The translations under genes and the position numbers were made by a program. Below are positions 5,834 through 39,892 of a stretch of 54,454 nucleotides of DNA, piece by piece (position 1 is the stretch's first letter; each line of letters begins with the position of its first letter). Below the pieces are notes generated by a model. It had not been told where the DNA came from, did no database searches, and saw only the letters and a list, made by a program, of their open reading frames with translations. The stretch lies in IMG/VR virus record IMGVR_UViG_3300032892_000002, positions 1 to 54,454 of that record. One strand, written 5' to 3'. The stretch is from a virus.

Positions 5834-5850
5834 CCAAGAAAGGGAAGATC

Positions 5851-6580: not shown

Positions 6581-6593
6581 CCCTGGAAAAGCA

Positions 6594-6639: not shown

Positions 6640-6649
6640 GTGTTTGTGC

Positions 6650-7612: not shown

Positions 7613-7625
7613 AGCGCACCTCCGG

Positions 7626-9565: not shown

Positions 9566-9566
9566 G

Positions 9567-10613: not shown

Positions 10614-10628
10614 ACCTGTGCCTTCCTG

Positions 10629-11573
10629 TCATAGATATGCGCTGCGGTAGGCGCAGACCATCTGCAGCCCAGCGCCGGCGACTTCGAGGGTGCTGTACCC
10701 GGGCCAGATGACCCACCACGAGGAGGTGATGTCAGCGGGCCGGTACGCGCCGTTGTAGTACCCGGCGCGCTGGTCGAAGTCGGCGTACAGCACATCCCCC
10801 GGCTGCAACGTCAGCGACGTCCACGACACCAGCTGCCCGGTGGTGGCGTTCAGCAGCCCAGGTGACGCGACCGCCCCGCCTGAGACGTTGGTGACGGTGA
10901 TTTGCGGCCGGGTTTCGAAGGTGCCCGAGTTGTACGCCATTATCGACCCGGGCGACGATCCGGCGGGGATGGTCGCGGGGATCGTCGCGGGGATGGTGAG
11001 CCCGAGACCACCGACGGCGGTGGTGGTCTGCGATTGCAGCATGGCGGAGTATTTACGCGGATCCGGTGCGATCAGCACACAGGTGAACGTGACGTCGTAC
11101 AGCGTGGGGTAGGTTTCGGTGAGTTTCCCCGACCGGCGGACCTGCGCCTGGGTGGCGACGGGTTCGTTGTACACCATTGTGGCGAGGTCGTTGACGGGGA
11201 TCACTTGCTGCAACTGGGCGCGGGCGACGTCGCGGAGCGCCTGGGTGGGCGCGGAGGCGGTGATGCTGACGGTGATAGCTCGGGGTGCGTAGTATTGCGC
11301 GGCGGGCCAGCCGCCGTGGTCGGCGGCGCGTTGCAGCACCTGCCCGGACACGTCGGGGCCGTCCCAGCCTTGGATGCTGTTCCAGATCCACGCGATGCCG
11401 TTGCTGTCAGGTCCGGTGCCGACCGACACTGTGACCGGGATGCCGGACCATGTGGGGGTGTAGGTGAACGATCCGGTCCAGTAGCCGATGTCCGGTGACG
11501 ACGGTGTGAGCGATGACGGCGACACAGCGGCCTCGTAGGTGGACGTGTACAGAAGGGTGTAGGCCCCGGCCAT
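10629..11573 (-). CDS. distal-tail-protein-like tail component
   Basis: 314 residues. It has the two-part plan of siphovirus Dit/tail-component proteins: an N-terminal region with an LRDVARAQLQQVIPVND helix and a TLYDVTFTCVLIAPDP strand, as in the 'phage tail family' fold, then a C-terminal galectin-like beta region (RPQITVTNVSGG, LQPGDVLYADFD). It lies between the tape measure and the tail-tip proteins and probably makes the first ring of the tip. The start overlaps the previous stop as TGATG. Confidence 0.7.
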   Translation of the reverse strand: MAGAYTLLYTSTYEAAVSPSSLTPSSPDIGYWTGSFTYTPTWSGIPVTVSVGTGPDSNGIAWIWNSIQGWDGPDVSGQVLQRAADHGGWPAAQYYAPRAITVSITASAPTQALRDVARAQLQQVIPVNDLATMVYNEPVATQAQVRRSGKLTETYPTLYDVTFTCVLIAPDPRKYSAMLQSQTTTAVGGLGLTIPATIPATIPAGSSPGSIMAYNSGTFETRPQITVTNVSGGAVASPGLLNATTGQLVSWTSLTLQPGDVLYADFDQRAGYYNGAYRPADITSSWWVIWPGYSTLEVAGAGLQMVCAYRSAYL

Positions 11574-12793: not shown

Positions 12794-15700
12794 CTATTGC
12801 GCGGTCCCGACCGCCAGCGCCAGCTCAAGCCGCATCTGCGACTTCTGCTCCGGAGTCGGATACGCCGGGCCGTAAAAGTTCTGCGTGATCGCCCCCCCGG
12901 TTTTCCGGCCTATGGCGTCGGCGATCGCCTCACCCAGCTTCGTGTACTCCCCAGCCGGGACCATCAGCTCCGGTGATGCGGTCATGTTCACCGCCGCGTC
13001 GCCGGGCATCAGCATCCCACCGTCGTCGGCTTTCGGCAGCTTCGACTTGGGCACCTTGAACCACTTCGCTGCTTCCTGCGCCAGGACCTGCCCCTCATGC
13101 TTGAACACCGCATCCAGTTGCGCCTGCTGCGCCTTCAGCCCGGCTAGGAAACTCGCACCCGTCCCCGACAGCCCGTACACCGCGTTCGCAGCCGTCTGAC
13201 CGACCAGCGTTTCTGCAGCCGAAATCTGCGTCTCCGTCGACGACAACGCCTTAATCAGCGAAGGGCCGCCGGCGAGGATCTCGTTCGCGTACTGCAGCCC
13301 CTGATCCGGGCCGAGCGCCACGATCTGCTGAATCAGACCCGTGTTCACCTTCGACGTCTGCAACCTCCGCAGCACCGCCGCGAACGCTTTCAGATTCGTC
13401 AGCTTCTGCGACATCTGGTACTGCAGATACTGCGGCCCTGTCATGAACTTCGTACCGCGCGCTGTCCCCACATACGCCGACCCGAGCGCGGCGGTCGAAA
13501 TGTCCGCATACCCGGCCAGGTTGCCCGTAGTGGTCGATGCGTAGGACTGCGCTGCGGCCATTTTGTTGTCGACGGCGGTGATTTTCGCCAGCGTGCCTTC
13601 CATGGCTTTGACCTGGCGGGTGACCATCGCGTCCCGCCACTTCGCCGACGCGCCTTTGTAGTTTTCGTTGACGATGCTGACGAAATCTTTCAGCATCTGC
13701 GCCAGCCCAGCGGGGCTTTCGATCCCTGCCGGGGACGCGAACGTGGCAGCGAGCCACGCACCCTGGGATTCTTCGTGCGCGAGCGCGGCGCGGGATGCTG
13801 CGCGGGCGGCGGCCCGCTGCCGTGGCGTCGCAGCCGCGTGATGAGCCGCCGGATGCCGGGCGGGGGGTGTCCGGTCCCGCCACCGCCACTTGCCATCAGA
13901 CGACCGGCGGCACACCAGATTCCCATGAACCCGGTTATGCTCGGACCGGGAGCAGAACTCACCACCCCGAGGCGTCCCCGCCGCGTAACCCGCCTCAACT
14001 CCCGCCATCGCCGACGTCGCAGCGTCCATCACCTGCTCACCGCCGAGCATATGCACCAACTCGGGACCTTCTTCACCGACAACCGCCCACCCCGGCGCCG
14101 CCCCCCCGACACCGTGCTGATACCAGTGGTACGCCATCTCATGAGCCTCAGCAGCATCAGGCGAACCGTACGTGCTGTTCCCGGTTAGGAACACCTGACG
14201 TCCCTGCCGAGCCGTCCACGTACCTAGTCCAGTGGTGGGGCACCAGACCCGTGCGGTTCCAGCGTCCTCACGTCTGATGGCCTTACCGCCTATGAACGGT
14301 TTGGTTTCCGCGATGTTCGCACCGGAACGCCGCGTGACCGGGTTCCTGGTCCACTGGTGAAACGCTGGCCGTTTGCCGCTGAGGTATATCATCACGGCGA
14401 TAGCGTCCTGCTGCGGCCCGTCGGCCTGCGCGTAGCTGATCTTCCCGGGATAGGGACCTTTCCCGCAGATAAAGCCGGGGCGTGCCTGGTGACCGTCGGC
14501 GCCGAAAACGCCGCGCATGAACGCGTCACGTTGCGACGGTGAAATGGACAGCACGAACGGCACCGGATCGCTGTGATCGTAGCCGCTGCGCTTGAGCAAC
14601 TCGGCAGAATACGGGCGGCTCAGATGCCAGTAGATCATCGGAGCCCCTGGCTGCCCGTCCGGCGTTTTGCCGCCGGTGCGGGTAGTGCGGTTGACGACCA
14701 TTTCGGCGGTGAGATCGTCGATCCGCTGCACGTGATCTGGTTTGCTTGTGGACTGGCACAGGTTGATTTGCACCGATTTGCAGCCTCGGGCGGTGCGCCA
14801 GTGCTTGCTGTCAGGGGTGCGTGACTTCAGGTACTGTACGTGCCCGTCGCCGAGGATCCAGCCGAGCAGTTCCGCCTCGATCTCGCTGATCGCGGGGCCG
14901 TCGCCTGTGCTGGCAGGTGCTGCTAGCCGGACCGAGTCATGCGCTGTGGTGATCTTATCCGCTTGGACAAGTTCGTCTGTCCGGCAGGACGGGCTGTATC
15001 CGCTCAGGCGGGTGCCGTGGCCGTCGCTGCGGCGCCCGTCGATCTGGTGCAGCCGGGAGACAGCCCAGCGGTGGTTCGGTGTGCATGTCACGTCCCACGT
15101 TTTGTTCCGTAGCCTGATCAGCGGAGCGTCGTCGTAGACGTGAACGTCGGTGATGGGCGTCCATTCGCTTTGCCTGGTTTTAGGGTTGTATCCGATCGTT
15201 TCATCACCTGGGACGACGCGATCGCAGGTTTTCCAGCCTTCCCGCGTGAGAATCTGCGTATCCGTATCCATACAGGCGATATAGGACATCATCCATCTGA
15301 GCTGTGTCTGCGGGTTGGTCCGCCAGTCCGCGCCTGCTGACGCCATCTTCGACGCCGGCAGGGCTTGGGGGATTCCGTACGCCCCCGATGAAGGGTTCAT
15401 CGCGCTGGGGTTCCAGCCCGACTCTGCCATGACCAGGGCGTTGAATGCGTCCCATTGGCCGGACCAGCCCATTGCGGCGAGCAGCGCCCGGGCCATCTGC
15501 TGGATCGGGCCGTTCGGCACCGAACCGGGGATGCCGCCCATGGCCTGCGCCTGCTGCTGCGCCGTTTTGGCGGCCTGGTAGACGGCGTTTTCCAGCCCGG
15601 AGATCATGTCGGCGGATTCGGCGTTCAGATTGCTGATCGACCAGTTCGCCAGTCCCCTGACACCGCTGGGGCCGCTGCCGGAGTAGTCGGGCACGATCCC

Positions 15701-18700
15701 GCCACCCTGGAACCCGGGGATGCCGAGGGCTTTGAAAATGTGCGCCAGCAGCGACGTGTGTTCTTTCGGGACGACCGTCTCGCCGGGTTCGGCGAGCAGC
15801 GGCACGACATCGCCGCCGCCCCAGCCGGGGATCCGGCCGCCTTTCGCCATCCCGGCCCGCGCCGCTGTTCCGGGTGCCAGCCCGGACGGGCCGGTGAACT
15901 TCTGCGCGATCGACCAGCTGCCGGTGGCCGACATCTGCAGCTTGGTGAAATAGTCGGGCCGGATTTTGCTTTCCGATTTGGCGAACGCATCCACCGCGCC
16001 GGTCAGGTTGTTCACCCATGTGTTGGCTGTCTGCGCGTCGATGCCAGCTTTTTCGAGATCCTTCAGCAGGTGGGTGCGGGCGCCTGCGGTCTGGCTGGAC
16101 TTGTCCCCGGTTTTCTGCACCGCACCGGCGAGCTTGTCTATATCCCCCGACGCGGACGGAACTGTATTCAGGATCGTCTGGGCATCGTCGTTGAACTTTT
16201 TCCGCGCCGCGTCCGTGCCGGTAAGCGTGCTGCCGTATTTGGTGACGTTGCCGGTCAGCGTGGTGATCCCGGCGGCGCCCTGCGCGACCAGGCTGTTCGC
16301 ATCGTTCTGCGCCTTGTTGACCGCCTGCAGTGCACTTTGGGTGGCCTGAGCGTTGGGCCCGTACTGCTTCAGGTCCTGCAGATATGTGAGGGTTTTCGCG
16401 GACACCCCAGTCAGCTGCTCGGCCTGGCTCACCAGCGTCTGGTTCAGCGTCGACTGGATCACCTGGGCCAGGTTCTGCGCATCCACCCCCAGGTTGGCCA
16501 GGGCTTTGCCTGCCTGCCCGGTCAGCTTATCCAGTGTCCCCATTGGGTTGGCGACCTTACCTGCCCACAGGGACAGGTTCCGCAGCGCGTCGGGGCCTTT
16601 GTAGTCTGCTTCCTGCGCGAGCGCGTAAATCTGGTCCCGCGCCTCACTGCTTTTACCGGCCAGCGGGATCAGTGCCACCACCGACGCCTGGATCGCTTTG
16701 ACCAGCGGGCCGCCGTCGCCGGTGACCAGCGCCGCTGTGCGCAGCGAATCCAGCATCGGCTCGATTGAGCTGACGACCGAGTTGAAATCGGTCCGCAGCT
16801 GGATCGCGGCGGTCGTCATGTGCTTGGCCACCGGCTCGGCCTTGGTTCCGAGGCCGCTCAGCGACGCGCCCGCCGCTCCGGCGTCAGCGGAGAACTGCAC
16901 CATGTTGCGGGCGAATGTCAGAAACGACGTGCTCGGCGCCTGCACCGTCTGGATGAACGTGTCCCACGCCTGGTTCAGCTGCGACACTTTGCTGCTCTGC
17001 AGTTCGGTGGCGACGGTGACTGCCTGCTCGTCGGCGCCGAGCGTCCCCATGACAGCTTTCAGGCCACCGTAACCGGCGGCCAGGTTCTGCACCTGCTGCC
17101 ACATTTCTCTGAACGACTCACCGACCCGCAGGTTCGCCAGGTTCGCGACCGCCAGCGCCTCCGGGTAGCTCACCCCGTACGTCTGGGACAGCTTCCCGAT
17201 CAGCCGCCCCGCCGTCGCTACGTCCCCTTCCTGCTGCTGCGCGCTGGCATGGTAGGCGTCGGCCTGGGTTTTGAACATTTCCGCGTTCTGCCGCATCGTG
17301 AACGCGAACTGCGAGTTTTTCTGCCACGTCTGCGCGGCGACGTTGCTGTAATGCTGCGCCGACGCCGCCGCCTTGTCCTGCTGCTGGGTCAGCAACGTAA
17401 CGTTACTGATCGCCTGGTCGAGGCCGGTGCTGAAGTTCACGTTGGACAGCGCCTGCTGCATCTCGGCGCCCATCTGCCCGGCCGCCTGCTTGCCCTGGCG
17501 CATCAGCTGGATGATGCCGATCAGCGCGCCGCCGACAAGCCCGGCACCGACCAGCGTGGCCGGGTCGGCGATGCCTAGCAGCGCCGCTTTGAACCCTTCG
17601 ATCCCGGCGCGGCCCGCTGCCGCGTTTTTCACCGCCGTCTGCACGGCGCTGCCCCACGCGCCGATCGCGGTGGTTTCGGGCATCAGGTCGGCGAGGCGGC
17701 TGATCGGCCCGAGCAGCCCCGTCAGCGCCGTGGTCGCGAGACCGCCCCAGCGGTTGAACCCTTCGATGGCGAGCCCCGCTTCGACGAACCATCTGCCGAC
17801 CGGGTTCTGGGTGATGCTTGTGACAACGGCAAGAAGGTGGCTGAACCCGTCGAACACGTCGAGGATGACGTTCGCGATCCCCGGCATGGCGCGCAGCAGG
17901 TTGGAGAACGCGACACCGAGGTTGCCGAGGATCTGCCCGAACTTGGTGAGATCGGGAATGCCTTCCTGCTGGATGACATTGATGAACCCGCCCGCACCGG
18001 ATTTTACCCACAGGTCGATTTTCGCGGCCCACTGGTCGAACACGGTGGTGGTGCCGATCGCCAGGGTGCGGAACACGCCCATCGAGTTGCCGACCGCGTT
18101 CAGCGCGCCGCCGTAGATTTCCAGCACCCCAGGTGCGACAGCCTGCGCGACTTTGTCGAACGCGACGTCAACGGCGGTGAGGTCCTGTTTGGTGGCGTTG
18201 GTGACGGTGCTAAGGGCGATGAAATGGGTGAGGATGTCCTCGATCGCCGGTGTCGCGGCGGCGGCGGCGGCGGCGGCGGCGGCACCGAGGGCGATCATCG
18301 CGGGGACGGCGACGGCGCTGAACTCGAACGCGGCAGCGGTCAGCAGATGCCACACGGGGGTGGCCGCGCCGAGCGCACCGCCGAACAGTGACACCCGCGT
18401 GGTGAGGAAACCGAACGCCCCGCCCGCTCCCTGGGCGGCGATCCACAGGCTGCTGGTGCCCGCCGCCGCGTCACGGGTGGCCGTGGCGGCGGTTTCAGCT
18501 TCCGCCGCCAGCGCCCTGGTCGCGATGGTCGCCGACGCGATGGCGCCTGAATCGACGTCGAATTTCAGCCCGACCCGCTGCCCCGGTTTCGACGCGGCGA
18601 GCGCCGCGTCGATCGCCGCGTCGGCTCTGGCGACGCTGGCCATGTCCGGGGATACGTCAAGTTTTATCTTGGCGTCCGGAAGGTCCTTCAGTTTGGCGGC

Positions 18701-18802
18701 GATCTCAGCCAGGTCGCGGTCGAGTACGTCCTGATCAGCGCGGACTTCGACGTAAATACGCCGAAGCGATCCGGAAACCTTCCGGCGGCATCGGCGGACC
18801 AC
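12794..18802 (-). CDS. tape measure protein with SLT transglycosylase domain, interrupted by an intein
   Basis: 2002 residues before splicing. N-terminal helical region with polyalanine; central hydrophobic segments and long coiled-coil-like stretches; the GWGGGDVVPLLAEPGETVV motif found in many actinophage tape measures; then a lytic transglycosylase domain (MAESGWNPSAMNPSSGAYG with the probable catalytic Glu). Intein residues 1177-1542 split that domain between SYIA and STYGSP. After it comes a Cys/His group (CSRSEHNRVHGNLVC) and more helices. The spliced protein would be 1636 residues; at about 0.15 nm per residue this implies a tail near 245 nm. It sets tail length and may locally open peptidoglycan. 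Start GTG 18802 is likely but has no strong ribosome site. Confidence 0.92.
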   Translation of the reverse strand: MVRRCRRKVSGSLRRIYVEVRADQDVLDRDLAEIAAKLKDLPDAKIKLDVSPDMASVARADAAIDAALAASKPGQRVGLKFDVDSGAIASATIATRALAAEAETAATATRDAAAGTSSLWIAAQGAGGAFGFLTTRVSLFGGALGAATPVWHLLTAAAFEFSAVAVPAMIALGAAAAAAAAAATPAIEDILTHFIALSTVTNATKQDLTAVDVAFDKVAQAVAPGVLEIYGGALNAVGNSMGVFRTLAIGTTTVFDQWAAKIDLWVKSGAGGFINVIQQEGIPDLTKFGQILGNLGVAFSNLLRAMPGIANVILDVFDGFSHLLAVVTSITQNPVGRWFVEAGLAIEGFNRWGGLATTALTGLLGPISRLADLMPETTAIGAWGSAVQTAVKNAAAGRAGIEGFKAALLGIADPATLVGAGLVGGALIGIIQLMRQGKQAAGQMGAEMQQALSNVNFSTGLDQAISNVTLLTQQQDKAAASAQHYSNVAAQTWQKNSQFAFTMRQNAEMFKTQADAYHASAQQQEGDVATAGRLIGKLSQTYGVSYPEALAVANLANLRVGESFREMWQQVQNLAAGYGGLKAVMGTLGADEQAVTVATELQSSKVSQLNQAWDTFIQTVQAPSTSFLTFARNMVQFSADAGAAGASLSGLGTKAEPVAKHMTTAAIQLRTDFNSVVSSIEPMLDSLRTAALVTGDGGPLVKAIQASVVALIPLAGKSSEARDQIYALAQEADYKGPDALRNLSLWAGKVANPMGTLDKLTGQAGKALANLGVDAQNLAQVIQSTLNQTLVSQAEQLTGVSAKTLTYLQDLKQYGPNAQATQSALQAVNKAQNDANSLVAQGAAGITTLTGNVTKYGSTLTGTDAARKKFNDDAQTILNTVPSASGDIDKLAGAVQKTGDKSSQTAGARTHLLKDLEKAGIDAQTANTWVNNLTGAVDAFAKSESKIRPDYFTKLQMSATGSWSIAQKFTGPSGLAPGTAARAGMAKGGRIPGWGGGDVVPLLAEPGETVVPKEHTSLLAHIFKALGIPGFQGGGIVPDYSGSGPSGVRGLANWSISNLNAESADMISGLENAVYQAAKTAQQQAQAMGGIPGSVPNGPIQQMARALLAAMGWSGQWDAFNALVMAESGWNPSAMNPSSGAYGIPQALPASKMASAGADWRTNPQTQLRWMMSYIACMDTDTQILTREGWKTCDRVVPGDETIGYNPKTRQSEWTPITDVHVYDDAPLIRLRNKTWDVTCTPNHRWAVSRLHQIDGRRSDGHGTRLSGYSPSCRTDELVQADKITTAHDSVRLAAPASTGDGPAISEIEAELLGWILGDGHVQYLKSRTPDSKHWRTARGCKSVQINLCQSTSKPDHVQRIDDLTAEMVVNRTTRTGGKTPDGQPGAPMIYWHLSRPYSAELLKRSGYDHSDPVPFVLSISPSQRDAFMRGVFGADGHQARPGFICGKGPYPGKISYAQADGPQQDAIAVMIYLSGKRPAFHQWTRNPVTRRSGANIAETKPFIGGKAIRREDAGTARVWCPTTGLGTWTARQGRQVFLTGNSTYGSPDAAEAHEMAYHWYQHGVGGAAPGWAVVGEEGPELVHMLGGEQVMDAATSAMAGVEAGYAAGTPRGGEFCSRSEHNRVHGNLVCRRSSDGKWRWRDRTPPARHPAAHHAAATPRQRAAARAASRAALAHEESQGAWLAATFASPAGIESPAGLAQMLKDFVSIVNENYKGASAKWRDAMVTRQVKAMEGTLAKITAVDNKMAAAQSYASTTTGNLAGYADISTAALGSAYVGTARGTKFMTGPQYLQYQMSQKLTNLKAFAAVLRRLQTSKVNTGLIQQIVALGPDQGLQYANEILAGGPSLIKALSSTETQISAAETLVGQTAANAVYGLSGTGASFLAGLKAQQAQLDAVFKHEGQVLAQEAAKWFKVPKSKLPKADDGGMLMPGDAAVNMTASPELMVPAGEYTKLGEAIADAIGRKTGGAITQNFYGPAYPTPEQKSQMRLELALAVGTAQ
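14177..15274 (-). mobile_element. intein with LAGLIDADG (DOD) homing endonuclease
   Basis: 366 residues inside the tape measure frame. It starts with Cys1 in CMDTDTQILTREGW (block A), has TPNHRW at 65-70 (block B, with the conserved Thr and His), two dodecapeptide motifs LLGWILGDG (136-144) and FMRGVFGADG (252-261) with their acidic residues, and ends VFLTGN followed by Ser as +1 nucleophile. The usual penultimate His is replaced by Gly, a variant seen in some phage inteins. All parts needed for splicing and homing look intact. The site is the conserved end of the SLT domain, where removal of the intein restores SYIASTYGSP. Confidence 0.95.
18255..18283 (-). repeat. GCC triplet run coding polyalanine
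   Basis: About nine to ten consecutive alanine codons (GCC on the coding strand) within the tape measure gene, read on the plus strand as GGC repeats. It is a simple-sequence tract that could vary in length by slippage; alteration by multiples of three would keep the frame. Confidence 0.7.
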
Positions 18803-21530: not shown

Positions 21531-21920
21531 TCAGTACACGCCGGGGATCTGGATGACGCCGACGGTTGTGGTGCCGCCGCCGGTGAACGTGAAGTCGACC
21601 GTCACGGTCGTGGTGCCGGGGGTGTCGAGCGCGGCGTGGAACGGCCCGACGACGCTGATCGCGCTGTTGTTCAGCGGCACCGAGAACGACGTCACGGACT
21701 GGCCGCCGATGGTCTGGCCGATGAACACTGTCGCGGTGCCGGCGGTGCCGTTGGCGGTGGCGTTGACCAGCAGCAGCACCTGCCCGAGGGGGGCGTTGTT
21801 GAAGGTGCAGCCGTTACCTGCGCCGGTGGTGACGGTGCCTGCGGCGCTGACGCCGTTGGTGAGGTTGGTGGCGGAGCCGTCGGCGCTCAGCAACGTGGGG
21901 GTGAGAGCTACGCGTGCCAT
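21531..21920 (-). CDS. structural protein, paralogue A of a tandem pair
   Basis: 129 residues, ATG 21920. It shares its plan with the next gene: start MAR-x-x-LTPTL, GAGNG-(C/V)-x-FNNAPLGQVLL, a central Gly-Gln-Thr segment, GPFHA, and the identical ending VGVIQIPGVY. The sequence is beta-rich with no catalytic features. Such small beta-sandwich proteins often decorate the head or tail surface. It sits between the tail terminator and major tail protein genes, so a tail-surface role is possible. A third, more distant relative lies beside the capsid gene (46665). Confidence 0.6.
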   Translation of the reverse strand: MARVALTPTLLSADGSATNLTNGVSAAGTVTTGAGNGCTFNNAPLGQVLLLVNATANGTAGTATVFIGQTIGGQSVTSFSVPLNNSAISVVGPFHAALDTPGTTTVTVDFTFTGGGTTTVGVIQIPGVY

Positions 21921-21935
21921 GGGGTGGACCCTTTC

Positions 21936-22325
21936 TCAGTACACGCCGGGGATCTGGATGACGCCGACGGTGACGGACGTGTTGGCGGTGAAGTCGACGC
22001 CGACGAGGAAGGTGCCGGGGGTTTGCATGAACGCGTGGAACGGGCCGACGAGCGCGACGCCGGTGGTGGCGAGCGGCCCGACGGTGTAGCCACCCTGGTT
22101 GGCGGTACCGACGGACTGGCCGAGCAGCGTCTGGCCGATGACCACGGTCAGCGTCGTCGGGGTGCCTGCGGTGACGACGACGAGCAGCACCTGACCGAGG
22201 GGGGCGTTGTTGAACTGGACACCGTTGCCCGCGCCGGTGGCGGGTGTGGCCGTGGCGGCGGTGCCGAGGGTGGTGAAACTGCTGTCGGCCGTCATCAGCG
22301 TCGGGGTGAGCGTGGTCCGCGCCAT
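21936..22325 (-). CDS. structural protein, paralogue B of a tandem pair
   Basis: 129 residues, ATG 22325 (joined to the previous stop as TAATG). Clearly homologous to the next gene downstream by length, by FNNAPLGQVLLVV and GPFHAFMQTPGTFLVG, and by the shared C-terminus VGVIQIPGVY. The pair therefore arose by duplication. The proteins have diverged in the middle, which suggests different partners or ligands. Surface decoration is an inference. Confidence 0.6.
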   Translation of the reverse strand: MARTTLTPTLMTADSSFTTLGTAATATPATGAGNGVQFNNAPLGQVLLVVVTAGTPTTLTVVIGQTLLGQSVGTANQGGYTVGPLATTGVALVGPFHAFMQTPGTFLVGVDFTANTSVTVGVIQIPGVY

Positions 22326-22993: not shown

Positions 22994-23341
22994 TTAGAGG
23001 TCGTTGATTTGCAGGAGGCCGAACATGGCGGTTTTTTTCTGTCCACCTGCGATGACGTCGACCCGCCAGAACCGGGTTGCCGGTGTCTGCAGATCGACGG
23101 TGGGGATGGTGACCGTCGCGAGCCCCGCCGTAGGTGGAGACGTGACAACGACGCCGCCGCCGGTGGTGGACAGTTTGATGACGTCGATGTCGGTGTCTTC
23201 CGACGCTGCCGACGGTTTGATGTAGAAGTCGACCTCGGCGGATGTGAGGTCGTACGGAGTGATGCCGTCTGGTTGCAGCAGGGTGAGGTTGATGGTTTCG
23301 TCGTTGCGTTCGTTGAGCACCAGGTTGATCTGCGCGGTCAC
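22994..23341 (-). CDS. beta-sandwich structural protein (BppU-like)
   Basis: 115 residues from GTG 23341, preceded by AAGGGA. The pattern NDETINLTLLQPDGITPYDL, AEVDFYIKP, then RFWRVDVIAGGQKKTAMFGLL resembles the N-terminal domain of BppU-like upper baseplate proteins that hold a receptor-binding partner. Its place next to the giant repeat gene suggests it may anchor that protein. Inference from strand pattern only. Confidence 0.5.
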   Translation of the reverse strand: MTAQINLVLNERNDETINLTLLQPDGITPYDLTSAEVDFYIKPSAASEDTDIDVIKLSTTGGGVVVTSPPTAGLATVTIPTVDLQTPATRFWRVDVIAGGQKKTAMFGLLQINDL

Positions 23342-23354: not shown

Positions 23355-26300
23355 TCATCCCGGGGTCGCGGTTCCGGTGATGTTCTGCGGGACAGCGCCG
23401 CCGGTAACGTTCTGCGGGACAGCGCCGCCGGTAACGCCGGGTACGATCAGCGGTTTCAGGTTGACCAGGCCGTGGACCCCGCCGAACCTGGCGCGGGTCA
23501 GCGGCGGTGGCCGTCTGCCCGGTACGACCGGTACCGCGTATTGCGGCGCGCCGAGCTGGGTGACGACGCGGCTGGCGTAACCGGCGGCACATTGCCAGCG
23601 TGGGCCGATCCGTGACCGTGCAGGCAGCGGCGGCCGCCACACGAATGGCCGCACCGGAACAGCGGTGACCGGCTTGTTGTACAGCCCTGCGGACCCGCCG
23701 GCGGCCTGACCGCGTGGGCCGCATCGGCCCCTAGCTGGGAGCGGGGACCGCCAGATGAACGGTTTCGGTGGCCCGAGCGCACCGAGCGGCGGGTGCGGTA
23801 CCGGGATCCCGGCGCCGGCGGTGCCGCGTGGGCCGATCCGGGCGGAGGCGTGCAGCGGGGACCGCCACACGAACGGTTTCGGTGGCCCCAGCGCGCCGAA
23901 TTGGGTGAGAACTCCGCCGCGGCCCGCTGCTGCGGTGCTGCGTGGCCCGGTGACCGCCCGGTACGGTCCTGGTCGCCGTATCTGCGGCGCTGGGCGCTGG
24001 TATGTGGTGGCGAGCGGGATCGGCGCCGGGCCGGTGGTGCCGCCGGCGGTGGTGGTGTGCCCGGTGGTGGCGCGGGTGTGTTTCGGCGGGTATTGCGGGA
24101 CTTTCCGCGCGGGTGGCAGGGCGCCGAGCGGGACCGGTGGGGCGGTGTAACCTGCCGCGCATGTGCCGCGTGGCCCGAGTGTGGCCCTCGCCGGTGCGGG
24201 CCGGCGGATCTGCGGCGGGGTCCGCTGGTAGGCGCCGGGTGTGCCAGGGAGGACGGGTGGTGCGGGTGCTGCGGCGCCGTGCCATACCGCCCGGGCGGGT
24301 GCGGGGCGCTGGGCTTGTGGTGGCAGCGGGCGGTGCAGGACAGGCAGCGTGCCCAGCGGCACCGCCGGTGCTGCTACACCGTGCCAGAGCCCTCTTGCGG
24401 GCGCCGGGCGCCGGATTGCCGGTGCTGGCCGCTGGTAGGCGGTTACGACAGGTGGTTGCGCGGGGTAACCGGCGCCGTGCCACACCACCCGGGTCAGCGG
24501 CGCGGGCAGCCGTCCCGGCACCACTGGGACGGTGACCTGCGGCGGCCCCAGCAGCGGCAGGTTGTACAGCCCAGCAGTGCCTGCGCCGACCGCACCGGCA
24601 GGCCCTAGTTTGGCGCGCGCTGGTCCTGGCCGGCGGATCTGCGGCGAAACCCGCTGATACGCACCGGGGGTACCGGGGACCGGCGGGATGTACGGGCCAA
24701 GGACCGCGACATCGACCCAGTAGTTGGTCGCGTTGAAACTCGACGCCGGGTAGGTGAGAATCCCGCCGAGGTTGAATGTGTCCTGGCCGCCGTCGGCTGC
24801 GGCGTTGTCCGGCGCGAAGATGATCCCCGACGTGATCCCCGCTGCGCCGGGACCGGTGTCCCAGTAGTGCGTGGTCGCTGAGTACCAGCCGACGGCGGCG
24901 GACTGGCAGACGACCGCCTTGTACGGCACCCCGGCGGTGATGGTAACCGGGCCAGTGGCGGCTGCCAGGATCCAGCCGGTGGCGGCGGTGACCGGGAATG
25001 TGACCGCCGAACCCGCCACCGGGGTGCCGGTGCCGGGGCCGGTGACCTGGAACAGTTCAGCGCTGGTCGGCAGCGCGTCCCCGGCGGTGGCGCGCCAGAA
25101 CCAGATGCCGGCGAAGGTTGCGTTGACGCTGAGGGTGAACTCGACGCCGAGGGAGTAGGCGCTGGGGTCACCGGAACTGGTCGCGGGGCCGGGGGTGGAT
25201 GGCCAGATGCGGTAGGCGACGACCAGCGGCGCCGGTCCCTGGATCCCGGCAGCGCTCGTAGCGGGTCCGGTGACGGCGCGGCTGACCCGCCGCTGCCCGA
25301 TGATGATCGGGATTACCGGCTGCGCGGCTCCGGTGGGGGTGACAACCGTTGACGCGATCCCGGCTGCGCAGCCGCTTGCGGGTCCGACGACGGCGCGGGC
25401 CCGGGCCGGTCGTTTCACCGTCAGCGGCGGCAACCCGACCGGCGGTGCCGCAGGCGGTACCGCTGCTACGGCGGTGCCATGCCACAGTCCACGCGCTGGC
25501 GCTGGCCGGTATCTGTGGACAGGTGCAGCCGTTTGCGCGGCCGGTGGCAGCGGTCCTGGCAGGTTGACCAGCGCGGCGACGCCCGCGCCAACGGCACCGG
25601 ACGGACCGAGCTTGGCGCGCGCTGGTCCTGGCCGGCGGATCTGCGGCGAAACCCGCTGATACGCACCGGGGGTACCGGGCAGCGCGATCGGTGCTGGGCC
25701 TGCGGCGCCGTGCCACAGCACCTGGGCGGCCGCTGGGCGGCGGATCTGGGGCGCCGGCCGCTGGTAGGCGGTAACGACCGGCGGGGCGCCCCTGGCCGCA
25801 CCCGCAGCGCAAGCTACCGCCGGTCCGACATGGGCCCGCGCAGGGACCCTGCTGCGGGCGATGAACGGCCTCGCCGGCAGCAGGGTCCCCAGCGGAACGC
25901 CGCCCGCAACGCCGCCGTACGGGCCAGGTCGCGGACCCACCCACGCCCGCGCGGGTGGGCGGCGGGTGATGACCGGCCGCAGCTGCGGGGACGGTGCCGC
26001 GCCTGCCGGGTAGTGCGGAGCGGCGTACCCGCGCCACAGCACCCGCCGTGGCGGCAGATGCTGGATGACTGGGCGGGGGGCAGGCTGCGACGGTGAACCG
26101 AGCGGGGGTGCCGCGCTCGCGACACCGCCAGCAGCCTGACCTCGGGGCCCGGTGTGTGCCCGCGCAGGTGGCCGGTGAACGATGACAGGGCGGGGCGGCG
26201 GCTGGGTGAGATACCCAAGCGACAGCGACGGCCCGACCTGCCCGGCAGCGACGTATGTTCCGGGGCCGACTTTCGCCCGCGGCGACGCGGGCCGGAACCG

Positions 26301-27473
26301 GTGAACAGGCGCTGCTGCCTGCACCGCCGGCGGCAGCGGTCCTGGCAGGTTGACCAGCGCGGCGACACCGCCGCCGGTCTTACCGGACGGTCCGACCCGG
26401 GCGCGTGCCGGGGCCGGGCGGTGGGAAACGAATCCTCTGGCGCTGGCGGCTACCGGAACTGCTGGGGGCGGGGCGGCGATCCCGGCGCCGGTTTGCTGGT
26501 TTCCGGTGGTGGCGCGGCGCGGCGGCGGTGGGGGCCGATGACCGGGTGGCCGCTGCTGCAACGTGATCGCAGCAGCAGCGATCGGTGGGGACGGTGGGGA
26601 GATTCGCTGGCGGTGGCGGTTAAGACGCCGCCAGGTGGGGCCGCCGATGTGGGGGTAGTTCGGCGACGGAGCCGACGTGGCGCCGGCGTTTTCGATTTCG
26701 ATGCCGAGCAGGGTCCAGGTCTGCCCGGTCGGTGAGGTGATGCCGAGAGTCTGCGACCCTGGCGCGGTGGCGATCTGGTACGCGTAATAGGCGGTGTACA
26801 GGCCGCTCTGGGTGGTGTAGCCGTCTTGGGTGGGGACCGCTGATGTGCTGTTGTAGGTGGGGGTCCCGGATATGGCCGCCCAGTCGCCGTTGAGCCACGA
26901 CACAACGGAACTGGCACCGACGGTGGTGATCGTGGTGGACGGTGCGCCGGACCCGCGTGTGTCGACGGTGGCGGGGGTGGTCGCGAGTTGCGCCCCGGAC
27001 CAGCGTTCCACCACGATCGAGTTGGCGCCGTTGCCGGTGTGCGCCACCGTGACGGTCATCGACGCTGACGCGGTGACCGGCGCGGTCCAGATTTTGCAGC
27101 CGGTGTGGGATGAGGTTACATCCGACACCCACAGGGTGTAGGTGAACCCGCCGCCGGTCGGGGTGGACTGGACAATGCTGGAGGCATCTTCGGTGATGCC
27201 TTTGACGACGAGGATTTCACCGACAGCAGGGGTGAACGAACCGGTGACCGCGCTGCCGGTGCCGCCGGCCACGTACACCGGGTAGGAGGCGACCAGCAGC
27301 GGCGGGTCCGGCGGTATGCCCAGCCCACCAGCGCACACCGCCCCAGCGCCGACCCGCGCCCGCGCGGGTGCCGGGGGGCGGGCGACGAACGGCCGGACCT
27401 GCAGCGCGGTTGTGACGACCGGTACTTGCCGGATGTACGGCTGGCCCGGGAATGCGCGCCTGAAACGGGCCAT
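23355..27473 (-). CDS. giant Arg/Pro-rich repeat protein with two inserted beta domains
   Basis: 1372 residues from ATG 27473, with a strong GAGGAGG seven bases upstream. About 24 units of 35-40 residues repeat the core [RP-x-x-x-R-P-x-PARA-x-x-GP-x-G-x-x-A-A-G], for example RPFVWRPPLPARSRIGP and PQIRRPGPARAKLGP. The units carry few acidic residues. A domain of about 210 residues (roughly 60-270; GGTGSAVTGSFTPAVGEILV) resembles a module in nearby genes, and a DUF4082 domain (about 745-935; LGVEFTLSVNATFAGIWFW) also occurs at 30390. The C-terminus has a 9-residue tandem repeat. Probably an extended, strongly basic, proline-rich fibre. Enzyme activity is not indicated. Function unknown. Confidence 0.75.
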   Translation of the reverse strand: MARFRRAFPGQPYIRQVPVVTTALQVRPFVARPPAPARARVGAGAVCAGGLGIPPDPPLLVASYPVYVAGGTGSAVTGSFTPAVGEILVVKGITEDASSIVQSTPTGGGFTYTLWVSDVTSSHTGCKIWTAPVTASASMTVTVAHTGNGANSIVVERWSGAQLATTPATVDTRGSGAPSTTITTVGASSVVSWLNGDWAAISGTPTYNSTSAVPTQDGYTTQSGLYTAYYAYQIATAPGSQTLGITSPTGQTWTLLGIEIENAGATSAPSPNYPHIGGPTWRRLNRHRQRISPPSPPIAAAAITLQQRPPGHRPPPPPRRATTGNQQTGAGIAAPPPAVPVAASARGFVSHRPAPARARVGPSGKTGGGVAALVNLPGPLPPAVQAAAPVHRFRPASPRAKVGPGTYVAAGQVGPSLSLGYLTQPPPRPVIVHRPPARAHTGPRGQAAGGVASAAPPLGSPSQPAPRPVIQHLPPRRVLWRGYAAPHYPAGAAPSPQLRPVITRRPPARAWVGPRPGPYGGVAGGVPLGTLLPARPFIARSRVPARAHVGPAVACAAGAARGAPPVVTAYQRPAPQIRRPAAAQVLWHGAAGPAPIALPGTPGAYQRVSPQIRRPGPARAKLGPSGAVGAGVAALVNLPGPLPPAAQTAAPVHRYRPAPARGLWHGTAVAAVPPAAPPVGLPPLTVKRPARARAVVGPASGCAAGIASTVVTPTGAAQPVIPIIIGQRRVSRAVTGPATSAAGIQGPAPLVVAYRIWPSTPGPATSSGDPSAYSLGVEFTLSVNATFAGIWFWRATAGDALPTSAELFQVTGPGTGTPVAGSAVTFPVTAATGWILAAATGPVTITAGVPYKAVVCQSAAVGWYSATTHYWDTGPGAAGITSGIIFAPDNAAADGGQDTFNLGGILTYPASSFNATNYWVDVAVLGPYIPPVPGTPGAYQRVSPQIRRPGPARAKLGPAGAVGAGTAGLYNLPLLGPPQVTVPVVPGRLPAPLTRVVWHGAGYPAQPPVVTAYQRPAPAIRRPAPARGLWHGVAAPAVPLGTLPVLHRPLPPQAQRPAPARAVWHGAAAPAPPVLPGTPGAYQRTPPQIRRPAPARATLGPRGTCAAGYTAPPVPLGALPPARKVPQYPPKHTRATTGHTTTAGGTTGPAPIPLATTYQRPAPQIRRPGPYRAVTGPRSTAAAGRGGVLTQFGALGPPKPFVWRSPLHASARIGPRGTAGAGIPVPHPPLGALGPPKPFIWRSPLPARGRCGPRGQAAGGSAGLYNKPVTAVPVRPFVWRPPLPARSRIGPRWQCAAGYASRVVTQLGAPQYAVPVVPGRRPPPLTRARFGGVHGLVNLKPLIVPGVTGGAVPQNVTGGAVPQNITGTATPG
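23382..23435 (-). repeat. two tandem 27-bp perfect repeats
   Basis: Bases 23382-23408 and 23409-23435 are identical and encode VTGGAVPQN twice near the C-terminus of the giant repeat protein. Such units could change copy number by recombination. Confidence 0.9.
24610..24677 (-). repeat. 68-bp exact repeat, copy 1
   Basis: Identical to 25612-25679. It encodes the unit PGTPGAYQRVSPQIRRPGP and following residues, just after the DUF4082 domain in the protein. The two copies flank the DUF4082 domain and three repeat units. Confidence 0.9.
25612..25679 (-). repeat. 68-bp exact repeat, copy 2
   Basis: Second copy of the 68-base block found at 24610-24677. In protein order it precedes three repeat units and the DUF4082 domain. 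Recombination between the copies would remove about 1 kb (1002 bases, a multiple of three) in frame. Confidence 0.9.
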
Positions 27474-34751: not shown

Positions 34752-35552
34752 TCAGCGGGCCGCCAGAGCCGCAGCCTCCGCTGGCAGGTACGCCGCCTGG
34801 TAGCCCCACGGGTTACCGGCCCGCGCGTCCTGGTCGGTGACGTAGATGTTGCCGATGTTCGCGGCCTGCGCCTGAACGAGGACCTGCTGCATGAAATACG
34901 GCGACGGGCAGTTGTACACCAGCGCCGCAAACCGTGACGCCGGGTAGTTCTGCACCCACGACGGCAACGCGGCCAGGAACGCCGCCCACGCCCCCGCCCC
35001 GTAGTCGTTCTCGTGGATGATCACAATATCGGCGAACGTCATGTACCCCGGGTCGGACGCTGGGACCGTGCCCCAGTTCAGCACCGCGACCGCCCCGCCG
35101 ACTGTGTGGACCTGGTTGCACAGCGTCTGGTAGTAGCTGGCGTTCCCGGCCGTGTCGTCGGCCCGGTCGAAAAAGATCGACGTCACTGCCGGCGGCCCTG
35201 GATAGATAACGGGCCATGATCCTGCGCCGGACACCTGCGCCTGCGCGGTCGCCAGCGGAACCGCTGTGTAGTTGGTGTCCACATAGCCGAGCACCGTGAT
35301 CCCTGCCGTGAACGCGGCGCTGATCGCGGTCGTGTAAAACGCGTCCCCGGCGCCGGGCCCGGATGCCGGGTCAGCGATCGCGTATTTGACCGCCCCACCG
35401 GTCCCGGTGCCCGCCCCCGCCGCGAGCCCAGCTGAATAGGTGCCGCAAAGCTGCCAGAATATGCCCAGCGCAGGATGCTGGTACACGGGCACCAGCATCG
35501 ATGTCGCCGCCTGCTTGTACGCCACCCACGGTGGGCTCATCGCCGCATGCAT
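34752..35552 (-). CDS. spherulation-specific family 4 (GH-like) protein
   Basis: ATG 35552 gives 266 residues; the frame to 36044 is an artefact in another gene. The order MLVPVYQHPALG, YAIADPASGPGAG, AFTAGITVLGYVDTNY, TSIFFDRADD, YYQTLCNQVHTVGG, VLNWGTVPASDPGY and IVIIHEND follows the Spherulin4/GH114-like TIM barrel (related to GH135), with putative catalytic acids in VDTNY and FFDRAD. Such enzymes cut galactosaminoglycan-type polymers. In the virion it could act as a depolymerase. Expressed with the fibre cluster. Confidence 0.75.
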   Translation of the reverse strand: MHAAMSPPWVAYKQAATSMLVPVYQHPALGIFWQLCGTYSAGLAAGAGTGTGGAVKYAIADPASGPGAGDAFYTTAISAAFTAGITVLGYVDTNYTAVPLATAQAQVSGAGSWPVIYPGPPAVTSIFFDRADDTAGNASYYQTLCNQVHTVGGAVAVLNWGTVPASDPGYMTFADIVIIHENDYGAGAWAAFLAALPSWVQNYPASRFAALVYNCPSPYFMQQVLVQAQAANIGNIYVTDQDARAGNPWGYQAAYLPAEAAALAAR

Positions 35553-35568
35553 CAGGCCACCGTTCCTT

Positions 35569-36291
35569 TCAGCCGCATACCACCACAGCGGCCCACACCC
35601 CCGCGTACCCGCCTGTCGGTGACGAGTACCGGCACAGTTCGGTCCACTGCAGCATGCCGTTGTCGTCGCACAACTGGACACATGCGCCGGTGCCCGCAGC
35701 GGCGACCATGGCGACCAGTAGCGACCCCATCGGCGGGGTGAAATGCGCGGTCGACACAGACGTACCCGAGGCAGTGACTGCCGGCGGTGATGACGGGTCT
35801 TCGAGCAGGGTCCCGGATGCGGGGATTTCGACGGCTGCGATACCACCGGCGGTTTTCGGCGCCATGTCCGATGCGCCGACGGTGATCGGTGTCCCGGCGG
35901 TGGTGTAGCCACCGGCGCCGTCGTCCGAGGACCGGAACGTTCCGTAGGTGGCGTTGTCTGTGGCGTCGGCGACGTTCTGGCTGAACGTGGTCCCCCCCTC
36001 GGGGGTCCACGCCGACGCCGCGTCGTTGCGGCACACCGCCCCATACACCAGCGACCCCGTGTACTCGGGGACCAGCGTCACCGCTGGGATCGCCGCATAC
36101 CGGGCGCCGGTCGCGCCGGGGGTGAACGACGACTGGTACTGCGGCCCCGACACCGTGATCACCACGCCGGTGAGCGCTTTCACGGTCAGCGCCATCCCGT
36201 TCGCCGCACCCGCCCCCCACTGGTACGCGGTGACCGCTGGGCTCACGCTGTTGCATTGCCGCCACGGCATGATCGCCTGCCCGGTGAACAT
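35569..36291 (-). CDS. fibre/surface protein with the shared module (copy 4)
   Basis: 240 residues; ATG 36291 is chosen because GTG 36309 overlaps the previous stop further. It is a full-length paralogue of the gene at 28810: PAVTAYQWGAGAANGMALTV, DATDNATYGTFRSSDDGAGG, FTPPMGSLLVAMVAAAGTGA, GYAGVWAAVVVCG. The two flank the fibre block, which suggests duplication at its ends. Likely a beta-rich surface protein. Confidence 0.6.
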   Translation of the reverse strand: MFTGQAIMPWRQCNSVSPAVTAYQWGAGAANGMALTVKALTGVVITVSGPQYQSSFTPGATGARYAAIPAVTLVPEYTGSLVYGAVCRNDAASAWTPEGGTTFSQNVADATDNATYGTFRSSDDGAGGYTTAGTPITVGASDMAPKTAGGIAAVEIPASGTLLEDPSSPPAVTASGTSVSTAHFTPPMGSLLVAMVAAAGTGACVQLCDDNGMLQWTELCRYSSPTGGYAGVWAAVVVCG

Positions 36292-36298
36292 CGGCCGG

Positions 36299-36880
36299 TC
36301 AGTCCTCACCAGCCAGAGTCAGATATTCGGTGGTGACCGTGTTCCCTGCCGTCGCCGCGCTCAGCGACAACGCCGGCCACAGGAAATACTGCTGATCACT
36401 CGCCCACGTCGCCAGCGGAGTGATCGCCCCCGACGCGGGCAGCGGGACGATACCGAACGTCGCAGTGGGGAACCCGATCGACGTGAACGACCCCTGCGCG
36501 AGAACCGTCGACGCGCCGCCGAGCGCCAGGGTCCGCAACCCGATACGGATCGACGACGTCCACGGGGCGCTGGTCTGCGCGGTCGGCGTGAACGTTCCGG
36601 TCGACCCGAGCGTCAACGTGGTGCCGAACGCGTTGGTGGTCGTCAGATACAGGAAAAACTGCCACGTCGGGATCGTCGCCGTGGCAGTCATCAAGCCACC
36701 AATCTCCAGCCTCAGCGACGATGACCGCGACCCCACCGACCCCATGATCCCACCAGGAATCACGATCGCCGGATACGTCAGCGTGATACTCGACCCCGGC
36801 GACGTCGTTGGAGTACTTGTCGTCGCCGCGCCGTAAAACGAGTACAGCAGCTCCGTCTGGGTGCCGAAAAAACCGCTCAC
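36299..36880 (-). CDS. beta-sandwich structural protein
   Basis: 193 residues from GTG 36880, which overlaps the previous stop (GTGA). Strands: LLYSFYGAATTSTPTTSPGS, LTYPAIVIPGGIMGSVG, SLRLEIGGLMTATATIPTWQ and QQYFLWPALSLSAATAGNTV. Jelly-roll-like and similar in pattern to genes at 28051 and 39324. No catalytic motif; a head or tail surface protein is likely. Confidence 0.55.
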   Translation of the reverse strand: MSGFFGTQTELLYSFYGAATTSTPTTSPGSSITLTYPAIVIPGGIMGSVGSRSSSLRLEIGGLMTATATIPTWQFFLYLTTTNAFGTTLTLGSTGTFTPTAQTSAPWTSSIRIGLRTLALGGASTVLAQGSFTSIGFPTATFGIVPLPASGAITPLATWASDQQYFLWPALSLSAATAGNTVTTEYLTLAGED

Positions 36881-37578
36881 CGTTCACCACCGCCCCGCCG
36901 CAGAGCCCGTATCTTCGCCACGTCCCCAGCCATCCGCTCCGCCCGCCACACCTTGTACGCCTGCTCGTCATGCTGCACATGCGGCCACGCGTCCCGGTAC
37001 GTCGCGTCCCACTGCGCTTTCCCGGTGACGTGATGCTTATGCGGCACCAGCACGTCCCGCAGATACGCAAGGCACCCTGCCGCTTCGCCGAGGTCGTGGA
37101 CCACGTTGTCGACCCACCAATGGTTCAGCGACGGCTCACACATCCATCCCAGCGCTTCCGCGATGTCCGACGACTGGATCCACGCTTCACACACATCGTC
37201 GCGGATCTGGTCGTTCGGGTACGCGAACCCCGTCCCCCCCATCCCCGCGACCGCTTCCAGTAGCAGCTTGTCCCAGCCTTCGGTGACTGGCACATGGTCG
37301 TCGCCGAACGACCCCAGATGGCGGAACGACCCAGCCGCATACGACGCCACGTAGTTCGTCCACCCGGCCAGCCCTTTACGCGGGCCTGTCACCACCGACC
37401 CGGGGAACCCGCCCGCTTTCGCCGCCGCCCGGTTCTGTTCGAGCGCGGGGTCGTCGTCGTCGAAACAGAACACCACATCGGTGCGGGCCCGCGATGTGGT
37501 TTTGACGGTGCGGGCGAACCGGGCCACGTTCCCTGGCCGTCCCCGCGACGGGACGATCAGCAGCAGGTCAGGTCGCAT
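36877..37578 (-). CDS. glycosyltransferase, GT-A fold (GT2-like)
   Basis: ATG 37578 (MRPDLLLIVPSRGRPGNVAR) is preferred to 37584. 233 residues. Motifs: LIVPSRGRP at the start, FCFDDDDP (a probable DxD for a metal-bound nucleotide sugar), GWTNYVASYAAGSFRHLGSF with GDDH, and a later Trp/His-rich stretch. It could add sugar to a phage or host target. It is paired with the GT-methyltransferase fusion upstream (11-base overlap), so both probably work in one pathway. Confidence 0.8.
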   Translation of the reverse strand: MRPDLLLIVPSRGRPGNVARFARTVKTTSRARTDVVFCFDDDDPALEQNRAAAKAGGFPGSVVTGPRKGLAGWTNYVASYAAGSFRHLGSFGDDHVPVTEGWDKLLLEAVAGMGGTGFAYPNDQIRDDVCEAWIQSSDIAEALGWMCEPSLNHWWVDNVVHDLGEAAGCLAYLRDVLVPHKHHVTGKAQWDATYRDAWPHVQHDEQAYKVWRAERMAGDVAKIRALRRGGGER

Positions 37579-39274
37579 CAGCAAACGGTACTGTGATCAG
37601 GCCGAGGCCGAATTCGCCGCCCATCTCCTCCCACACCAGCCCCGTCTCCGCGCAGTACGTGTCCAGCGCCCGGGCCACCGGGAACCCGTCACCGGGCTCG
37701 AACTTCGTGTCGTGCGCCAGTACCGTCCCGCCGGGCCGGACCAGCGGCACATACTGCCGCAGCTCCGCCAGCGTCTGGTCATAGGAATGGGGGTCGACGT
37801 CGAGGAACAGCACCTCCACCTCAGACGGCAGCTGCGCGATCACGTCGGGGTCGAGGTCGTCGCCTTTCACGAAGGTCCACAGGCCGCTGCGGGCCCAGTT
37901 CGCAGGTACCTGCGGGCCGGTGATGTCGACCGACCACACGTGCCCGCCGCACATCTCGGCCGCGGCCAGGAACGCTGACGTTGAGTTGCCGGACCGAACC
38001 CCCAGTTCGATGATCCTCGGCCCGGCGTATTTCAGCGCCGTGTCCCGCAGCACCGGCAGGCTGTCCCGCATGTCGGACCACTCACCCAGCCGCCGCTCGT
38101 AGTCGTCGCCGATCGGTTCCGCTTTGGCCGCCATCTTGTCTTCGAGCGCCGCCAACGCTGGGAGCCAGAACTCGTGGAACACCCGGTCAACGTCGTACCC
38201 GGCGGCGAACTCGCGGGCCTCTTTGCGGCGGGTGTCGTTCATCGGCCACTCAGCGAACGCCTCCTCATACGCGGCGATGATCCCCGACACCGACGGGCAC
38301 ATCCACCACGCCACATGCCCCGGCGCCCAGATCGGCTGGCCTTTCACCTTCCACCCAGCACCGCACAGCTCCGACATTGCGGACCCGTCGGTCACCACCA
38401 CCGGCGTCCCGCACGCCTGCGCCTCCAGGATCGGCAGCCCGAACCCTTCAGCGAGAGAACAGCACGACAGCACATCCAGCACCTGATACCACTGCGCCAT
38501 CAGGTCCCGCCCGACCATGCCGCACACGTAGGCATGCTGGTCCGGGTACATCACCGCGTCGGTGATACCGAGCCGGTCGGTGATTTTTTTCAGGTTCAGC
38601 CCGCCGACCGGCTCCGTGTTGATCGTGGTGTGCAGCACCAGGCGGCTGTTTTCGTGCCGCTCATGGAACTTCGCGAACGCCAGCAACTGTTCAGGGAACG
38701 CCTTACGGTTCCCCGACTCCTTGTTGATCGCGTTGATGCCGATCAGGAACGTGCTGGCCCCGACGCCCATCGATTCGCGGACCTCGTCCCGTTCCGCCGG
38801 GTCAAGCGGGCGGAACAGGGTGGTGTCGACGCCGTGGGGGATGTACAGCGGGTCGTATCCGGCGTCGCGTAGCTGGGTTTCGCCGAACCGGCTGAACGCG
38901 ATCGGCCAGCCTCCGGATGCGTCGAGTTTGGTCCGGTCCCCGTCGCCGAGGGGGGCGCAGTCGACAGGCATCCAATGCGCCACGTTCAGCTCTTTGAGTG
39001 GTTCCGCGTTCATCGCGAACACATCACACAAGGTGATCATCAGGTCGGCGCGGCTGTACCGGTAGTGCGACGCGATGACGTCGGAGCCGTAGGGGTCGAG
39101 ACCGCCGGGCAGGATGGTGAACCCCTCCCAGCCGAGGACGCTGCCGGTCATGCTGTACGGGGCGCTGATCGTTACGTCGTGGCCGGCCGCCTTGAGCCGT
39201 GGCACCCACAGAGCGGTCTGGGTACCGTACCCGCTTGTTATCATCGGGGCGTTGGAGTTCCACAAAATGCGCAC
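37568..39274 (-). CDS. glycosyltransferase family 4 / class I methyltransferase fusion
   Basis: GTG 39274 is chosen by aligning with the related gene at 46288 (both begin GTG-x-x-ATT/ATC-x-TG-TGG after AGGAGGTGxTG); GTGs at 39283/39286 are also possible. About 568 residues. A GT-B domain (SNAPMITSGYGTQTALW; later CSLAEGFGLPILEAQACGTP with the Glu-x7-Glu motif) is joined at about residue 400 to a Rossmann-like SAM-dependent methyltransferase (IIELGVRSGNSTSAFLAA, VLFLDVDPHSYDQTL). It resembles cephalosporin-hydroxylase-type methyltransferases. It probably glycosylates and then methylates the same glycan. Confidence 0.85.
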   Translation of the reverse strand: MRILWNSNAPMITSGYGTQTALWVPRLKAAGHDVTISAPYSMTGSVLGWEGFTILPGGLDPYGSDVIASHYRYSRADLMITLCDVFAMNAEPLKELNVAHWMPVDCAPLGDGDRTKLDASGGWPIAFSRFGETQLRDAGYDPLYIPHGVDTTLFRPLDPAERDEVRESMGVGASTFLIGINAINKESGNRKAFPEQLLAFAKFHERHENSRLVLHTTINTEPVGGLNLKKITDRLGITDAVMYPDQHAYVCGMVGRDLMAQWYQVLDVLSCCSLAEGFGLPILEAQACGTPVVVTDGSAMSELCGAGWKVKGQPIWAPGHVAWWMCPSVSGIIAAYEEAFAEWPMNDTRRKEAREFAAGYDVDRVFHEFWLPALAALEDKMAAKAEPIGDDYERRLGEWSDMRDSLPVLRDTALKYAGPRIIELGVRSGNSTSAFLAAAEMCGGHVWSVDITGPQVPANWARSGLWTFVKGDDLDPDVIAQLPSEVEVLFLDVDPHSYDQTLAELRQYVPLVRPGGTVLAHDTKFEPGDGFPVARALDTYCAETGLVWEEMGGEFGLGLITVPFADAT

Positions 39275-39323
39275 TTTCAGCACCACCTCCTCTCGTGTGG
39301 CCGAAACGGACCTGTAATGGAAA

Positions 39324-39842: not shown

Positions 39843-39866
39843 GGCTTGCTCCCTCTTGTCGTTATC

Positions 39867-39892
39867 GCATGCCGGGCGGAATGAGGGCATGC
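39867..39892 (-). other. intergenic stem-loop
   Basis: Arms GCATGCC (39867-39873) and GGCATGC (39886-39892) with a 12-base loop, in the gap between the connector gene at 39921 and the 39324 gene. It might be a weak terminator or processing site in the late transcript. Confidence 0.4.

Follow-up and report, generated by a model that had tools for sequence, protein, structure and literature searches.

A polycationic tandem-repeat protein from an exchangeable surface-gene cassette of a probable actinobacterial phage, a candidate virion-associated adhesion scaffold

A single open reading frame of 1372 codons, located at positions 23355-27473 on the minus strand of a 54,454-base IMG/VR virus record (the whole stretch of DNA analysed, hereafter the window), encodes a large protein, P0001, composed mainly of tandem Arg/Pro-rich units that contain no acidic residue. 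On balance, P0001 appears to be a probable, though far from certain, virion-associated adhesion scaffold, whose presence in the virion, extended shape and ligand we infer. The initial annotation, made from the sequence alone, had described one giant gene here, and its coordinates and length proved exact; it also pointed to a strong ribosome site, which is indeed found as a Shine-Dalgarno sequence (AGAGGAGG) about 7 nt upstream of the ATG start codon.

Read from its N-terminus, P0001 begins with a segment (residues 1-55; 27308-27473, minus strand as for all parts of the gene) that contains the first unit, matched by the unit profile at residues 25-54 with 24.9 bits. Two beta domains interrupt the repeats, as had been proposed. 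The first is a putative beta-sandwich (residues ~55-265; 26679-27311), recognized from its homologues and from an all-beta model of low confidence, and the second is a DUF4082 domain (residues 764-920; 24714-25184), which scores 58.5 bits against Pfam PF13313 (curated cut-off 28.4; E 9.7e-16). Between them lies a block of 12 units (residues ~300-750; 25224-26576), and a further block of 11 units (residues ~929-1335; 23469-24689) follows the DUF4082 domain, both delimited by hand anchors, the unit profile and composition, and both devoid of Asp and Glu. The translation ends in a G/T/P tail (VTGGAVPQNVTGGAVPQNITGTATPG; 23358-23468), and similar short G/T-rich C-terminal tails are present in the repeat proteins of contigs L002, L221, L239, L240 and L245 and in gp13 of the cultured phage Hiyaa.

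The estimate of about 24 degenerate units was borne out by two routes: hand anchors give 24, and a profile built solely from the units of other contigs, with the window left out against circularity, yields 24 matches above 0 bits, 19 of them above 5 bits, for a total of 267 bits. By comparison, 500 shuffles of the unit regions of P0001 produced at most one match above 5 bits, and no other open reading frame of the window has more than one match to the profile. The units are spaced at 32-42 residues and take two forms, a long one of 37-42 residues (...RSPAPARAxxGPxGxxAGG...) and a short, W-H-G one of 32-35 residues (YQRPAPQIRRPAPARAxWHGxAxPxPPVVTA). Conservation across 122 units of the family is concentrated in R, A, G and P columns, with the Arg of column 15 present in 117, the Ala of column 16 in 98 and the Gly of column 19 in 78. 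The description of the protein as strongly basic with nearly acid-free repeats applies in full, since none of the 857 residues in the unit regions is Asp or Glu, Lys and Arg make up 11-12% of them, and the net charge is about +98; P0001 therefore carries tandem units with a conserved R-A-x-x-G together with a near absence of acidic residues. Instead of forming clusters, the basic residues are Arg separated by Pro. Ser and Thr are scarce in the unit regions (8-9% by one figure, 8-13% by another), with few lower values in the window, and the threonine of the TPLG motif, common in the L220 and L235 proteins, has mostly been lost in P0001.

An AlphaFold model of three units, computed from 21 aligned segments, shows no helices, longer strands or other regular secondary structure (pLDDT 62, pTM 0.16). 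This modelling of units, suggested in the initial annotation, is consistent with an extended, non-globular stalk, low confidence being no proof of one; because the models are of low confidence, the term extended draws on composition and on the absence of a predicted fold. The N-terminal beta domain, modelled as all-beta at low confidence (pLDDT 47), is homologous to a stand-alone gene of L220 (E 4e-41) and to the N-termini of proteins in L221 and L001. In L001 (730-2631, plus strand) the same domain is fused to an apparent baseplate-type tail protein. A fold search of the domain model in the PDB returned nothing below E 0.1, and one in BFVD gave four matches below 0.001, all to unnamed or uncharacterised phage proteins; the sixth-ranked match, a weak one, is to a minor tail protein from a Mycobacterium phage (E 1.4e-3). 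No domain anchoring P0001 to capsid, neck or tail was recognized.

Searching with the repeat as a profile, another step proposed at the outset, combined with coding-pattern scans, showed that the repeat family spans at least ten contigs and that its inserted domains are exchangeable. Beyond the window, nine IMG/VR contigs belong to it: L220 (also L091/L222/L068), L235, L224, L245, L237, L239, L240, L221/L076 and L002, the last being the most divergent (profile E 7e-4). The DNA pattern for GIASxIVTPLG was productive in these scans, the first DNA pattern gave mostly chance hits among the matches listed, and the short-form unit pattern added no further contig. The relatives carry from 6 to more than 30 units per protein, and the charge has evidently been maintained, since Asp and Glu amount to 0-1.4% of the units in the nine relatives, compared with none in P0001. 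The repeat frames of L235 and L220 comprise 1133 and 1668 aa, respectively. The latter, the largest relative, is split inside a unit by a frame change (4391-5839 and 5841-10847, plus strand), the start of the first unit lying in a preceding 482-aa frame, which may reflect a sequencing error, a broken gene or a frameshift. The window, L220 and L235 proteins place some unit types in a common order, for example KVGPGTYVA... ahead of PPPRPVI..H and SPSQPAPRPVI, which suggests that these three proteins are true orthologues. Inserts differ within the family, with DUF4082 in the window, a LamG-like domain of the phrog_14065 type in L220, Gly_rich_2 (PF21722) in L245 and, by reading of the sequence, a beta domain in L239.

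The repeat gene is embedded in a block of virion genes. On the minus strand of the window, the portal, minor head protein, major capsid protein and head-tail connector are followed by a glycosyltransferase/methyltransferase fusion, the head-tail adaptor, a neck protein and a second glycosyltransferase/methyltransferase, and then by a run of beta proteins that includes a Spherulin4 protein, a pectin-lyase-like spike and a DUF4082 protein; next come the repeat gene, a gene of the phrog_1084 family (22994-23341, minus strand, from PHROGs), an Ig-domain/major-tail-like gene, the tape measure and Dit. The repeat gene adjoins the phrog_1084 gene and lies downstream of the genes for adaptor and neck1, in the interval that separates the neck genes from the tail-tube genes. 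Its earlier placement in the tail region is correct as to the virion gene block, but the interval is that of the head-tail junction and neck, upstream of the tail tube, whereas tail-fibre genes usually come after the tape measure. Beside the tail tube gene are two adjacent, apparently paralogous genes for 129-aa beta-type proteins (21531-21920 and 21936-22325, minus strand), and the 2002-aa tape measure protein (12794-18802, minus strand) contains an apparent intein in its transglycosylase region, running from CMDTDTQILTREGWKTCD to ...RQVFLTGN, immediately before STYGSP.

Several neighbours recur together with the repeat gene (all minus strand in the window). Two stand-alone beta genes are counterparts of N-terminal domains that L002 and L240 carry fused to the repeats: the gene at 28810-29514 matches the repeat proteins of L002 (E 2e-64) and L240 (E 2e-50), and that at 35569-36309 matches an L220 cassette gene (E 2e-73) and the L240 repeat protein (E 1.6e-36). 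A beta domain may stand by itself in one phage and be joined to the units in a second, which connects the repeat protein with the remaining beta proteins of the cassette. Homologues of the gene at 39324-39890 (E 1e-24 to 1e-47) are found just upstream of the repeat gene in L221, L224, L239, L240 and L002. Glycosyltransferase genes accompany the repeat gene in the window, L220, L224 and L239, the cassette genes of the window being one judged by eye to be GT-A-like (36877-37584; E 5.5e-98 to L220, no Pfam match) and a glycosyltransferase and methyltransferase fusion (37568-39286; Pfam, E 6e-117 to L224). A second such fusion (43868-46288; PHROGs, E 7e-180 to L224) also belongs to the virion operon, and both fusions match the same L224 gene. 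The cassette further includes a pectin-lyase-like spike and a Spherulin4 hydrolase-like protein. The glycan hydrolase-like module of the latter, Spherulin4 (E 3e-24), is encoded among the virion beta genes at 34752-36044; this frame overlaps that of 35569-36309, so its real start probably lies further in.

The placement of this gene set differs among its carriers. The repeat gene is directly upstream of the head-tail adaptor gene phrog_442 in L002, L237 and L245, is separated from a downstream phrog_442 by one tailspike-like/beta-helix gene in L221 and L239, and precedes a protease-like gene in L220, while the capsid belongs to phrog_267 in the window and phrog_10 in L002. In the relatives' contigs nothing matches the window's genes for tape measure, tail and neck. 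Because capsid families, neighbouring genes and placement differ, the cassette moves between phages and between operon positions, and the repeat gene belongs to a set of virion-operon surface genes that is exchanged in this way. The window represents a soil phage whose host is probably an actinobacterium, given that its portal is nearest to those of Streptomyces and Gordonia phages, with the cultured Hiyaavirus among the closest relatives, and its capsid to that of a Streptomyces phage.

If P0001 acts as an adhesion scaffold, its tandem units would form a long, non-globular, Pro-rich stalk with a charge of about +100 and no acidic residue, holding the N-terminal beta-sandwich and the DUF4082 domain away from the particle. 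Beta domains of that sort occur in phage tail proteins and in glycan-binding modules. The polycation might bind reversibly to polyanions in the envelope of the actinobacterium or the surrounding matrix, such as teichoic acids and acidic exopolymers, to which the inserted domains would contribute specificity. By arithmetic and not measurement, the 857 residues would reach about 265 nm if fully extended in a polyproline-like form, taking 0.31 nm for each. The differing inserts of the relatives fit such a display scaffold, and among the options in the initial annotation, an extended fibre or glycan-binding scaffold agrees best with the evidence, its shape and binding being conjectural. More speculatively, the family could represent a new class of adhesion device, a modular, acid-free, polycationic and unfolded stalk reaching up to hundreds of nm with interchangeable glycan-binding domains, exchanged among phages of unrelated capsid types in a cassette with its own glycosyltransferases and effecting charge-based capture on polyanionic walls ahead of specific receptor binding; we regard this wider proposal as tentative and rather doubtful. 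If true, soil phages would possess a long charge-only tether with swappable binding heads, undescribed for virions in the databases and papers searched. Such a modular, sequence-defined display stalk would account for the large basic repeat genes at the actinophage head-tail locus, and R-A-x-x-G units lacking Asp and Glu would offer a clean test case for net charge alone driving attachment to teichoic-acid-rich walls.

The rival hardest to separate from an adhesion scaffold without microscopy is a neck or capsid accessory (collar, whisker or head fibre), in which the basic repeats would pack on the negative capsid or tail surface, with the inserts as passengers and adhesion not the main role. 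It gains from the adaptor-adjacent gene in several contigs, the proximity of neck genes in the window and the same location of Hiyaa gp13, but the shift of the cassette relative to capsid genes and its crossing of capsid families, behaviour unexpected of a component that has to suit a single capsid, and the wide range of unit numbers speak against it, and we consider it unlikely. The cassette glycosyltransferases could instead decorate the repeats and thereby build a sugar coat on the virion, a view favoured by their regular company with the repeat gene. It corresponds to the earlier idea of a glycosyltransferase substrate, of which the association stands and the substrate role is weak: the low Ser and Thr content, the loss of the TPLG threonine and the lack of a conserved Ser or Thr place it low, the beta-sandwich domains (28% Ser and Thr) would be better substrates, and a glycoprotein backbone is improbable.

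The charge invites comparison with protamines and histone tails, and a nucleic-acid binder, ejected together with the DNA or serving to condense that of phage or host, would suit a polycation without acidic residues. Nothing beyond this charge speaks for the DNA-binding scaffold considered in the initial annotation, however; P0001 has no nucleic-acid-binding Pfam match, its Arg residues are dispersed among Pro, the beta and DUF4082 domains would have no obvious place, and the neighbours are surface-type beta and glycan-active proteins, all of which makes this function quite improbable. An artefactual frame in GC-rich, low-complexity sequence, encoding no real protein, is refuted in practice. 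GC of up to 75% does open long frames, and GC1 exceeds GC3 in the unit blocks, but the frame is open in ten contigs over 630-1670 codons, recognisable domains are embedded in it, and the ribosome site is strong. In addition, 29 ungapped 45-aa segments from pairs of relatives give a dN/dS of about 0.25 (dS 0.65, dN 0.16), a value biased low because the segments were selected at ≥72% identity, none of them coming from the window protein; segments were used after whole-length alignments had been discarded for slips in repeat register. The protein frame is the frame under selection, with conserved stretches that look purifying.

Searches beyond the family located the unit nowhere else at the sensitivity used. 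The view that the repeat has no named family was upheld in that the units match nothing in Pfam, PHROGs or the PDB, and P0001 as a whole has no PHROG match. With P0001, P0002 and the 1668-aa L220 protein as queries, tblastn against INPHARED returned nothing on the units; since distant relatives are masked by the low-complexity filter, this absence is firm only for close ones. A distant blastn search of INPHARED and a search of PLSDB were likewise without a match. The GIASxIVTPLG pattern gave 101 single matches in genome_contigs, none with tandem units, and a three-unit profile found none among up to 14 candidates scored per genome in about 590 actinobacterial genomes drawn by phylum and class around G010. 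The literature searched contained nothing on the PARA-unit repeat, on the function or ligand of DUF4082, or on Hiyaa gp13. The PARA unit is accordingly new to Pfam, PHROGs, the PDB and the papers searched, and absent from cultured phage and plasmid records at this sensitivity.

Among known systems, collagen-like (GXY) phage fibres are Pro/Gly-rich, long and repetitive, as is P0001, but it shows neither GXY periodicity nor a Pfam collagen match, and its unit is one of 32-42 aa on RPxPARAxxG. T4 Hoc and other capsid fibres, in which strung Ig or beta domains modulate surface contact (PMC10385173), would work in a comparable manner; Hoc, however, is acidic (pI ~4-5) and made of Ig domains, with no homology found to P0001, a polycation with unfolded-looking units. 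A Hoc-like string of Ig domains with a capsid-binding domain was rejected for P0001, which has no Ig-like Pfam match. Its residues 764-920 are a bona fide DUF4082 domain, yet this is one insert among 24 units. The nearest counterpart is Hiyaa gp13 (Galactica gp11), a 1110-aa member of phrog_14065 annotated as a minor tail protein and encoded by the gene before the head-to-tail adaptor. Like P0001, it combines N-terminal beta domains, many basic tandem repeats and a short G/T-rich tail, and the insert of L220 is a homologue of its LamG-like domain (E 8e-10, as a phrog_14065 match), which links the two kinds of protein directly. Its repeats, in contrast, are of ~20-22 aa (KxRxLGxA...), 5.7% acidic and 4% Pro, without a PARA unit, and membership of P0001 in phrog_14065 was rejected, the sole profile match being the insert of its L220 relative. 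P0001 hence resembles Hiyaa gp13 in build and, less clearly, in setting while standing outside phrog_14065, and the general kind, a large repetitive minor structural protein at the actinophage head-tail locus, is already known.
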